NCBI RefSeq assembly: GCF_011039175.1
Contig: NZ_JAAKEN010000006.1
Location: 1 to 64,000 of the forward strand
Direction of reading: 5' to 3'
DNA from: Slackia sp. ZJ119
GTDB lineage: Bacteria; Actinomycetota; Coriobacteriia; Coriobacteriales; Eggerthellaceae
DNA: 64,000 nt
Shown: positions 9,606-16,211 of the stretch, piece after piece
Layout of the letters: each line of letters begins with the position of its first letter
Position numbering within the stretch: position 1 is the first letter of the stretch
Notes under the pieces: model-generated
Seen by the model: the letters and a program-made list of their open reading frames with translations, nothing else
The model's database searches: none
Told to the model about the DNA's origin: nothing
Position numbers and translations under genes: made by a program

Positions 9606-10643
9606 CTATGCGTTCGGGTCGTAGCCGAAGCTTTCCGTCCAGTAATAGTGGTATGCGTCGTCTACGCTCACGCAGGCTGCGCCCATGACGTTGTATTCCG
9701 GACTCAGGACGTTCTTTCGGTGGCCCGCCGACCGCATCCAGCCGTTGTGCACTTTTGCCGCGCTCGTGGGGCCGGCCGCGAGGTTTTCGCCCGCCTCGGT
9801 CAATCCGCCGGGGTATGCCGTGAAGCACGAACTGCCATTTGGCCGCGTGTGCGAGAAGTTGCCGGGAGTCGAGCTTTCGCGGGCCCGGACCAGGGCGGTG
9901 TCGGTCAGCGAATCGCTCCATTGCAAAGGCGCCACGCCGATTCGGGCGCGGGCCTGATTCACCAGGTCAAGCAGTTCCCGCGCGTCGATCTTGGTGACTT
10001 CCCACACGCCGTCGCCGTTCACCCAATAGCTGCCGATGTAGCGGTTGGTCGCCATCACGCCTGATCCGGGCAAGAAGTAATACCACTCCCCCGAAATCTT
10101 TTTCCACTCGGTAGCCATCGCCCCCGAAGGATTGAGGTAGTACCACTGCGCCCCCGACTTGAGCCAGCCCGTTTTCATGGCACCGCTGCTGTTGAAGTAA
10201 TACCAGGCATTCCCCACGCGCTGCCAGCCGGTGACCATGGAGCCGTACGTGGGATGCAGGTAATACCACGTTTTGCCCACCTTGCGCCAACCGGTGGCCA
10301 TGGCGCCGGACGAATCGCAGTAATACCAGCGCCCGCCCGACTTTATCCACCCGGTACGCATCCAGCCGTTTCGGTCGAAGAAGTAGGTCGAACCGCCGAT
10401 GCGCAGGCTGCCGCTCGTCGGATACGTGCCGTTGTCGAACAAATACCACCAGGCATGCTTCGCCCGGCTGTACTGCCACGACCCCTTCGTTGCCGCGTAG
10501 GCAACGGACCCGCCTTCGTGCGAGTCGCCTCTGACAAGCGGCTGAGCAGCCACAGCGCCAACGGCAAGCCCGCTTGCCAGCACCAGGGCCATCATCGTCG
10601 ACAAACCCTTCGCCGCCCAGTTTCCGCACCGCTTCATAACCAT
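9606..10643 (-). CDS. Secreted CAP/SCP-domain protein with cell-wall-binding repeats
   Basis: A 345-residue exported protein. Start ATG at 10643 follows AGAGGG by 6 nt. A signal peptide ends near VAAQP (residue about 36). About seven repeats of the wall-binding type (GWxxxGxxWYYxxxxGxMxTGW) run to about residue 215. The C-terminal domain is CAP/SCP (LLDLVNQARARIGVAPLQW, then GENLAAG and AGHRKNVLSP). The repeats resemble choline-binding or toxin repeats that hold proteins on envelope polymers. The function of bacterial CAP domains is poorly defined. Two other proteins here (20687 and 28373) carry the same repeat type. Confidence 0.9.
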   Translation of the reverse strand: MVMKRCGNWAAKGLSTMMALVLASGLAVGAVAAQPLVRGDSHEGGSVAYAATKGSWQYSRAKHAWWYLFDNGTYPTSGSLRIGGSTYFFDRNGWMRTGWIKSGGRWYYCDSSGAMATGWRKVGKTWYYLHPTYGSMVTGWQRVGNAWYYFNSSGAMKTGWLKSGAQWYYLNPSGAMATEWKKISGEWYYFLPGSGVMATNRYIGSYWVNGDGVWEVTKIDARELLDLVNQARARIGVAPLQWSDSLTDTALVRARESSTPGNFSHTRPNGSSCFTAYPGGLTEAGENLAAGPTSAAKVHNGWMRSAGHRKNVLSPEYNVMGAACVSVDDAYHYYWTESFGYDPNA

Positions 10644-10798
10644 TGCCAACCCTCTTTCCCCAAAGAGCGTCACTTAGTCCCATGTCATGCGAAGCAGTTT
10701 ATCATATACAAACATCTGTTTCAATTTATAAAGGCAAGAAAAGGGGCCTCCCATGAAAAATCTTTGCAAAGAGACCTCTTTTCGGGTCACTTTGCGCA

Positions 10799-11700: not shown

Positions 11701-11774
11701 GAGCTGACAGAGGGACGGGGTATTCGTCAGCTCGGCGAGCCGAGCTGACGAATACCCCGTCCCTCTGTCAGCTC
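11701..11774. repeat. 74-bp perfect hairpin, copy 1 (REPIN-like)
   Basis: Two 36-bp arms are exact inverted repeats with only GA between them. Each arm is itself bounded by GAGCTGAC and GTCAGCTC around AGAGGGACGGGGTATTC, so it is a double REP-like unit. The same arms recur at 13539. It lies just past the 3' end of the APC permease gene and may end its transcript. Confidence 0.9.
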
Positions 11775-13624: not shown

Positions 13625-14512
13625 CTACTCGAATTCCTGCTGCAGCTGCCGGCACATCTCGCGCGCCTCGTCCGCGTCGCCCCGCTTCCACAGCGCTTCG
13701 ACCACCAAGACGTGGTTGCGCACGTCGTGGCGCAGGCGGGCGACGCGCTCGACCTCCTGCGCGACGCCGCGGAATTCTTTCGTGGACGCGTCGATCCGCT
13801 CTTCCAGCGCCTGCGAACGCGCCTCGATCGCCTGCTTGCGAGCCGATATCGCCACGGCCAGCAAAATGACCACATCGGTCAAGAGAAACAGCCCGATGAC
13901 CGCCACCGACATGCCCGTGACCAGCGGCTCGTCGCTCACCGATTCGCACACCCGGTTCATCAGCAGCGCAAGCGCCAGCTGCACGGCGGGGAACCACAAA
14001 AAGTTAACCAAAGTAAACGTTTGGTTGGAGACCGATCCGTCGCGAGAAAGCCCCAGACGCTTCAACAGCTTCCCCAGGCCGACGTATATGAGGAAAACGA
14101 TCACCAGGTTCACGATGCTGAGCAGGGTAAACTCCGCAAGGCGCGGATAGACGACGTCGTAGTTGGCAACGGGCTCGCCCGAGATGACCATCCAGGCGAA
14201 GCTGAAGGGAAACTCCGTCAGCGCCATGACGATCACCGACATGAAGGTGACCACGAGCCGCGTCCAGAAAGGCATCGGGCCGAACAGGATCGGAGCGAAC
14301 GCCAGCACGTACGCGAAAACGATGCGCTGCCACGACCCGATTTCCCAGAACACGAAGACCATCAGGGCCATGCCCACGATCTGCACGGTCCAGTAGAGCG
14401 CCTTGCGTTCAACGGCAAGATAGCGGCTCACCGCGTACGCGAACAGCATCTGGACGGGGACGCCGGAAACCAGCATCACCGCCACGTGCTCAAAGTCGTA
14501 TCCGGACATCAT
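13625..14512 (-). CDS. Membrane sensor with histidine phosphoacceptor but no ATPase domain
   Basis: A 295-residue protein with about seven membrane helices (residues about 5-230), a short coiled coil (EARSQALEERIDASTKEF) and then VARLRHDVRNHVLVVEAL, the SpoOB/AgrC-type H-box. The phosphoacceptor His is at about residue 262. The protein stops about 30 residues later, so the usual N, G1 and G2 boxes of the catalytic ATPase domain are absent. The ATG at 14512 lies 4 nt past the stop of the ATPase-type gene, which indicates coupled translation. With that partner and the LytTR regulator upstream it forms one operon. It probably senses an extracellular signal, as AgrC-like receptors do, but I see no peptide precursor nearby. 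Confidence 0.85.
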   Translation of the reverse strand: MMSGYDFEHVAVMLVSGVPVQMLFAYAVSRYLAVERKALYWTVQIVGMALMVFVFWEIGSWQRIVFAYVLAFAPILFGPMPFWTRLVVTFMSVIVMALTEFPFSFAWMVISGEPVANYDVVYPRLAEFTLLSIVNLVIVFLIYVGLGKLLKRLGLSRDGSVSNQTFTLVNFLWFPAVQLALALLMNRVCESVSDEPLVTGMSVAVIGLFLLTDVVILLAVAISARKQAIEARSQALEERIDASTKEFRGVAQEVERVARLRHDVRNHVLVVEALWKRGDADEAREMCRQLQQEFE

Positions 14513-14516
14513 CAGC

Positions 14517-15464
14517 TCATTTCTCGTCGCAAGGTTTGCCTGCGGCGCCGACGTTGAGCGCCAGCTCGGTGTCGAACACGCCCTCGTCGGAGGCCGTCGA
14601 GAACGTGCCCGCGTAACGGTTTGCCAGGCTCTCAAGGATGGACAGGCCCCACCCGTGCTGCGGAAGCGCCGAATTCTCCTCGCCCTTCGTGAAGGAGACG
14701 CGCGAGCGGCTCGGCACGGCCCGGCTGCGGTCGGGGCAGCTGTTGCGCATGGAGACCCACAAAAACCCGTGCGCCATCGCGGCTTTCACCTGGACGAAAC
14801 GCTCGCCTTCCGGCAGGCTTTCGCACGCATGTATGGCGTTGTCGAACAGATTGGAGAACAGACAGCACAGCTCGACGTCGGAAAGAGGCAGGTCGCGGGG
14901 CAGCTGCAGGTCCAAAACGACGGCGATGCCCTTCTGCTCGCACTGGCTCGCCTTCATCGCTGCAAGCGTGTTGACGATGGGGTTGGCGCAGTAGCGAAGC
15001 GGCGCGTGCAAAGACGCGAACGCCTCGTCCGTCGGACCGTCCACCGCGACGCCTTCGCGCGGCGCACCCTCCGACAGGCTTTCTCCGAGCGCCCGCACCT
15101 TGTCCTGCAGCGCCCGCTTGATGCGCCGGGCCTCGTCGAGATTGCTCTGCGCACACGCACGCTGCTGCTCCTGCTCGCGAACGACCTGCTCAAGCAAGCG
15201 ATTCCGAACGCGCTTCTCGTCGACGGCCTGGGCGCGTCTCAGCAGCTTGAACAGCAAAACGTCGACCGGGATGCAGCACGCGCCGACGACCAGGACCCAC
15301 GCCAGCCAGTTCGAAGGCAGCCCGTAGACCACGATGCACGCCGCGATCACGATGAGCGCGGCCAGCTGGCTCGCCGGAAACAGCAGCTTGCCGGCGCGAT
15401 GCACGGTGGAACTGTGTCGTGAAAGCGCGTCGAGCACGCCGTCCATCGCAGATTCTTTCTGCAC
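14517..15464 (-). CDS. AgrC-like kinase ATPase subunit with degenerate H-box
   Basis: A 315-residue protein starting at the GTG at 15464, 6 nt after AAAGG. It has two membrane helices (about 28-70), a coiled-coil stretch, then a dimerisation region and an HATPase_c_5 domain. The N-box is LFSNLFDNAIHA and the G-box is HGWGLSILESLA. Where AgrC/CitA-type kinases have RIKHDYKNHL, this protein reads RRIKRALQDKVRAL, so His is replaced by Arg and the Asn/His pair by Asp/Lys. It therefore should bind ATP but cannot phosphorylate itself at the usual place. Its neighbours supply the missing His (13625) and the receiver (15480). Confidence 0.85.
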   Translation of the reverse strand: MQKESAMDGVLDALSRHSSTVHRAGKLLFPASQLAALIVIAACIVVYGLPSNWLAWVLVVGACCIPVDVLLFKLLRRAQAVDEKRVRNRLLEQVVREQEQQRACAQSNLDEARRIKRALQDKVRALGESLSEGAPREGVAVDGPTDEAFASLHAPLRYCANPIVNTLAAMKASQCEQKGIAVVLDLQLPRDLPLSDVELCCLFSNLFDNAIHACESLPEGERFVQVKAAMAHGFLWVSMRNSCPDRSRAVPSRSRVSFTKGEENSALPQHGWGLSILESLANRYAGTFSTASDEGVFDTELALNVGAAGKPCDEK

Positions 15465-15479: not shown

Positions 15480-16211
15480 CTACGACAAACTTCTTTCATG
15501 GATGCTCTTCACCAAGCAGTCCTTCGTGGCTTGATACCGATGCTGGCTGACCGGCACCTTCTCGCCCGTCGAAAGCAGCAGGTCCCTCTTCTGAAGCTCC
15601 TGCACATAGTCCAGATTGACGAGAAAGCTGCGATGGCACTGGAAGAACCGGTCCGGCAGCTGTTTCATGACCTCTGTCAGCTTCCCGTACGCCTCGAAGA
15701 TGTCGTCTGCCGTTTTGACTTTTATTTTGCGCAGGTCGCTTTCGATGTATGTGATTTTGTGCAGTGGCACAAAAATGAGCCGCCCCGCCTGCTTGATCGG
15801 AAGGGCCTCGCGCGAAAGTTGGTCGAGGTTGGCGAGCGCCTTGTCGAGCGCCTCGAAAAGCTTCTCCCGCTTGATGGGCTTCGTCAGAAAATAGGTATGA
15901 TTGGTCTGGTAGACGTCGGTGCAGTACTCGATGAAGCTGGTGACGTAGATGATCTGCGTGCCGATGTCCGATTTGTAGCGAGACTTGACCACGTCGATGC
16001 CGCTGACCTCGCCATCCTCGCCGTCCTCTTCGAGGCAGATGTCCATGAACACGATGTTGAACGAGGCTCCCGCGTCCAAGGCCTCTTCGAATTCCTGGGC
16101 CGACAAAAAAACCTGAATCTTTGGAACGACCGCGTGAGGATATTCCAAAACCAGGTCTTTCAGCGCCAATGCCGCCTGCTCGTCATCGTCTACTATTGCC
16201 AGTCGGTTCAT
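15480..16211 (-). CDS. LytTR-family response regulator
   Basis: A 243-residue AlgR/AgrA-type regulator. The receiver domain (1-125) has the acidic pair DDDE near residue 9, the phospho-Asp in FMDICLEED (about 59), the conserved Thr/Ser in VTSFIEY and Lys in LTKPIKR. The LytTR DNA-binding domain (about 145-243) shows IFVPLHKITYIES and FFQCHRSFLVNLDYV. The start at 16211 follows GGAGGGGG at a somewhat long spacing. It is first in a tight operon with the split kinase (gaps of 15 and 4 nt) and should bind paired direct repeats in target promoters. Targets are unknown. Confidence 0.95.
   Translation of the reverse strand: MNRLAIVDDDEQAALALKDLVLEYPHAVVPKIQVFLSAQEFEEALDAGASFNIVFMDICLEEDGEDGEVSGIDVVKSRYKSDIGTQIIYVTSFIEYCTDVYQTNHTYFLTKPIKREKLFEALDKALANLDQLSREALPIKQAGRLIFVPLHKITYIESDLRKIKVKTADDIFEAYGKLTEVMKQLPDRFFQCHRSFLVNLDYVQELQKRDLLLSTGEKVPVSQHRYQATKDCLVKSIHERSLS

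Follow-up and report, generated by a model that had tools for sequence, protein, structure and literature searches.

A reciprocally degenerate pair of AgrC-type membrane proteins encoded beside a LytTR regulator in Slackia sp. ZJ119, a probable two-part sensor kinase

In the window, i.e. the whole stretch of 64,000 nucleotides that was analysed from this gut bacterium, the genes for a LytTR response regulator (R) and two membrane proteins (B and A) follow one another (Table 1). R starts with an ATG at position 16211 and its receiver domain carries an FMDI phospho-acceptor motif. Gaps of 15 nt between R and B and of 4 nt between B and A make it plausible that the three genes form one operon. 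An earlier interpretation made from the letters alone, termed the sequence-only reading here, had placed A and B exactly where we find them and had described them as translationally coupled members of an operon following the LytTR gene. Gene order and close spacing agree with this description and the operon is plausible, while the coupling of B and A is something we infer.

Table 1. Features of the R-B-A locus (positions in the window)
Feature	Position	Strand	Characteristics and evidence
R, LytTR response regulator, 243 aa	15480..16211	-	Pfam Response_reg (E=4.5e-9) and LytTR (E=2.2e-23)
B, putative catalytic subunit, 315 aa	14517..15464	-	2 TM helices, long helix, HATPase_c_5; without phospho-acceptor His
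A, putative sensor/phospho-acceptor subunit, 295 aa	13625..14512	-	~7 TM helices and DHp hairpin; without ATPase domain
B degenerate H-box RRIKRALQDK, aa 113-122	15099..15128	-	Arg117 in place of His; three-way alignment
B ATP-binding domain, aa 162-304	14553..14981	-	AF2 pLDDT ~94-96 outside a flexible loop; Foldseek
B N-box NLFDN, aa 205-209	14838..14852	-	N205, D208 and N209 invariant in 32 B proteins
B G-box HGWGL, aa 270-274	14643..14657	-	G271, W272 and G273 invariant in 32 B proteins
A intact H-box RLRHDVRNH, aa 259-267	13712..13738	-	R261, H262, D263 and N266 invariant in 39 A proteins
Dispersed palindromic repeat directly after the A stop codon	13539..13612	.	two perfect 36-nt arms, 2-nt spacer

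Protein A exhibits the multi-spanning sensor and the RHDxxN H-box of AgrC-type (HPK10) kinases, the number of helices having been judged from the sequence and from the A half of an AF2 model of a natural fusion protein. The codon for His262 occupies positions 13727-13729, the protein stops 33 residues beyond this histidine, and a Pfam scan revealed no ATPase domain in A. In B, HATPase_c_5 (aa 195-303, E=8.2e-14) is present with the N-box and GxG box of the same kinase type, N241 is also invariant in the 32 B proteins, and the best PDB matches of the ATPase domain in Foldseek are AgrC structures (6E95, 6E52, 4BXI). A three-way alignment places His262, Asp263 and Asn266 of A in the same columns as Arg117, Ala118 and Asp121 of B, and none of 21 B proteins has a histidine at the H-box position. 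The sequence-only reading had claimed that A combines about seven membrane helices with an intact AgrC-type H-box but ends before any ATPase domain, that B unites an intact HATPase domain with a changed H-box, and that each protein has what the other lacks, all of which is borne out by domain matches, fold and alignments. The hallmark of an AgrC-type (HPK10) kinase, His and ATPase on a single polypeptide, is found in neither A nor B. The G-box of B almost always reads HGWG in the Eggerthellaceae, and most single-chain relatives have HGLG or HGYG instead; the Trp of this box is absent from the B proteins of Collinsella and of most Bacillota.

When aligned with single-chain relatives (L125, L151, L153, L128, L123 and L172), A matches their N-terminal portion and breaks off precisely where DHp helix 2 gives way to the ATPase domain. 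B, which has two TM helices and whose H-box is dead, matches their C-terminal portion. Both are thus derived from, and paralogous within, one single-chain family. At some 35 further loci from Coriobacteriia, every A contains R-H-D-x-x-N and ends at the border between DHp and ATPase, and every B contains the ATP-binding boxes but lacks the His. A congener (G136) has an identical split trio with 95% identity for A, 89% for B and the same A stop. Measured against this congener, dN/dS is 0.12 for A, 0.26 for B and 0.19 for R; values of 0.24 and 0.28 were obtained for a second A/B pair of the genome. Both A and B are under purifying selection. Within the family, A is present in 38 of 138 genomes and 17 of 48 genera, and B or B-like matches occur in 59 genomes. 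Two other species of the genus yielded no A match, so the locus is not universal. Distances of R, A and B correlate pairwise to the same extent for all three pairs (mirror-tree with 39 trios, r 0.74-0.76), which speaks for co-inheritance of the three genes and not for specific A-B contact. A consistent partner among the genes neighbouring the trio was not found, many of the clusters consisting of antisense ORFs or ordinary housekeeping genes.

These data bear directly on the question of whether A and/or B are non-functional remnants of full-length kinases, be it as decaying paralogues or as products of a sequencing error or frameshift. Each protein indeed lacks a part that is normally essential, and a repeat element abuts the stop codon of A. 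However, the same ends recur in the congener and in 17 genera, dN/dS is low for both genes and the catalytic residues are invariant, which renders this explanation extremely improbable; a pseudogene or frameshift is refuted by conservation across genera together with purifying selection. Full-length kinases in relatives with this strain as the lone broken one, the counter-scenario named by the sequence-only reading, are not what is found: the split A is carried by the congener and by the 17 genera, and the trio with its reciprocal losses is conserved across the order. A constitutes a protein family whose end point is fixed rather than accidental, and the A/B pair gives the impression of a functional sensor in two parts instead of a damaged gene. 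The perfect palindrome behind A has an intergenic counterpart at 11704-11771, both with 27-mer pairs 14 nt apart, and about 11-12 dispersed, REP/MITE-like copies exist in the genome. It was considered as the cause of the truncation of A and rejected, as the A end of the congener is identical and the exact 27-mer was not found at its locus.

Linkage was counted over all loci, with proteins sharing identical last 120 residues counted once, leading to 60 A, 53 B, six A-B fusions and 57 single-chain kinases. B resides within 1.5 kb of A in 55 of 60 cases, the remainder being mostly extra A copies before R or contig ends, and A lies equally close to B in 48 of 53. The five exceptions on the side of B comprise two contig ends (L082, L107), a fusion (L106), a locus with an A just under the score cut (L159) and one with a much shortened A (L162, see below), such that, after de-duplication, no B with complete flanks is without an A partner. 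Single-chain AgrC-type kinases never have an A or B neighbour (0/57, or 0/56 after correction for L119, which had been called single-chain by a loose motif and is actually a B-type protein, sister to L120, with a contig end just downstream). By linkage and reciprocity, phospho-His and ATPase are located on separate, linked proteins, as defines a split histidine kinase. Six distinct proteins unite A and B in one frame, among them those of Adlercreutzia faecimuris (L115), Enterorhabdus P55 (L113) and another Eggerthellaceae MAG (L112); they retain RHDLRN in the A half and have no His in the B half. An apparent fusion in reverse order, catalytic half first and His half second, is encoded in an Oscillospiraceae MAG (L106:5239-7128).

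In the genome itself, HATPase_c_5 matches are restricted to B (B1), its homologue B2 from the second A/B pair and one ordinary HisKA kinase, and a single-chain AgrC-type kinase able to replace A or B was not found. There are two LytTR proteins; for the one that is not R, encoded on contig C17, no AgrC-type partner was detected. The second A/B pair (L044, G000:C23:186844-188648) has a PurE-like (AIRC) gene on one side and a cas operon (Csd1, Cas5d, Cas3) on the other. This inventory is relevant for a reading in which B does not act as the kinase of A but regulates on its own, for instance as a phosphatase or an allosteric partner that depends on ATP, and in which a different kinase charges A, a phosphotransfer subunit similar to Spo0B or a phosphatase subunit. 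Such roles would agree with the HDxxN motif of A, which is compatible with phosphatase activity, and the HisKA kinase could act as the donor. On the other hand, B2 is the only other AgrC-type ATPase of the genome, A and B are strictly linked and occur as fusions, and the ATP-binding boxes of B are invariant. We regard this possibility as unlikely.

We conclude that A and B are probably obligate, non-identical subunits of one AgrC-type sensor kinase. A would sense via its 7-TM domain and present His262 on a complete DHp hairpin, and B would supply a degenerate DHp helix for pairing as well as the sole ATPase domain. In the A:B dimer that may be formed, B would bind ATP and phosphorylate His262 of A in trans, and phosphorylated A would hand the phosphate to the Asp of the adjoining regulator R. 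An obligate hetero-kinase feeding the LytTR protein had already been proposed by the sequence-only reading and gains support from reciprocal conservation, linkage, fusions and selection; we infer dimerisation, trans-phosphorylation and phosphotransfer to R. What counts against the hetero-kinase is that the second A/B pair has no adjacent response regulator. An AF2 model of the natural fusion L112, aligned with A rows, was poor (pLDDT 63, pTM 0.41) and no A:B interface was seen in it; Foldseek on this model was uninformative, and mixed A and B rows were misaligned because A and B are homologous. AgrB (PF04647) had no match in the genome, hence the processing protease of an AgrC-AgrBD quorum-sensing system is missing, and the ligand is unlikely to be an Agr peptide produced by AgrB.

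It is also conceivable, though we consider it somewhat doubtful, that the hetero-kinase is organised more loosely and that one B serves several A proteins as exchangeable heterodimers, resulting in many sensors per catalytic subunit and response regulator. In this genome, this possibly includes cross-pairing of A1/B1 with A2/B2. A outnumbers B in 14 locus records, some of which represent one contig fetched twice, and the reverse applies only to L124; up to four A and two B are present in L056. The lack of a regulator next to A2/B2 points in the same direction. Against this, the extra A copies could have separate partners of their own.

Carriers of the split include Rubneribacter, Eggerthella sinensis, Adlercreutzia, Senegalimassilia, Collinsella, Thermophilibacter, Olsenella and Bifidobacterium pullorum, and strong B matches in the phylum sample all fall within the same order. 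Similar reciprocal pairs furthermore occur in Bacillota, i.e. in Butyrivibrio (L120), a member of the Lachnospiraceae (L148), Lachnoclostridium An169 (L150), Caccovicinus (L159), Oscillibacter (L169) and Traorella (L162), where the large sensor can be part of B (L169, L162) or of both subunits (L120, L148). The Traorella MAG encodes a 134-aa mini-A (L162:4892-5296) with the motif HHDYNN, a putative minimal phospho-acceptor subunit whose gene is flanked by those of a LytTR regulator and a sensor kinase lacking the His. In a quick tree of ATPase domains, the B proteins from Actinomycetota form one group (50 rows, SH-aLRT 80) and those from Bacillota are placed elsewhere. Constraining all B to one clade is rejected, though only at p-AU 0.018; if just the strongly supported branches are counted, a single change is still sufficient. 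It is thus likely, though not proven, that the split arose repeatedly. A and B would most likely have originated when a single-chain kinase was duplicated and the two copies underwent reciprocal losses. As a tentative generalisation, obligate hetero-kinases may have evolved recurrently in gut anaerobes, with several interchangeable sensor/His subunits sharing one catalytic subunit and one LytTR regulator; the sole constant of such a class would be that phospho-His and ATPase reside on different chains.

Histidine kinases are usually regarded as self-sufficient homodimers, and truncated or His-less kinases are easily written off as pseudogenes or orphans. Splitting of kinases as such is already known. 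In Rhodobacter sphaeroides, CheA3 and CheA4 carry phospho-His and ATPase on separate proteins, neither of which autophosphorylates alone, and their complex feeds a response regulator, which shows a division of this kind to be functional in vitro (PMC3591291). HisKA proteins without HATPase are also recorded in SMART, and EnvZ has been functionally split in vitro (PMC3591291). The separation of functions is the same in A and B, known here from sequence, but CheA3/CheA4 have the soluble chemotaxis architecture of CheA (P1, P3-P5), whereas A and B are two homologous membrane proteins of AgrC type, of which B has a degenerate DHp. They are not a split CheA, as neither CheA domain sought by Pfam scan (Hpt P1, CheW-like P5) was found in them. 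Hik36 and Hik43 from Synechocystis, which make up one histidine kinase from two genes and interact in two-hybrid assays (PMC7656254), differ as a CheA/PilL split that is encoded by unlinked genes and is not AgrC-type. With AgrC-AgrA (HPK10), A/B share the TM sensor, the RHDxxN-type H-box, HATPase_c_5, the LytTR regulator and, for B, the fold; unlike AgrC, in which one chain has both activities, they are two chains and belong to a genome without AgrB. The open-access literature yielded only CheA-type splits and no report of a reciprocally degenerate membrane pair of AgrC type; this kind of pair is apparently new, and it is widespread. If our reading is true, the conserved A/B pair would offer a naturally occurring equivalent of the complementation experiments that have been engineered with kinase mutants. 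Trans-phosphorylation, asymmetric signalling and the exchange of sensors could then be tested directly in native systems, and A and B would supply orthogonal split parts. The annotation of sensor genes in Eggerthellaceae and related gut bacteria should change. Elsewhere in the window, positions 9606-10673 encode a protein that combines a CAP domain with cell wall repeats of the choline-binding type.
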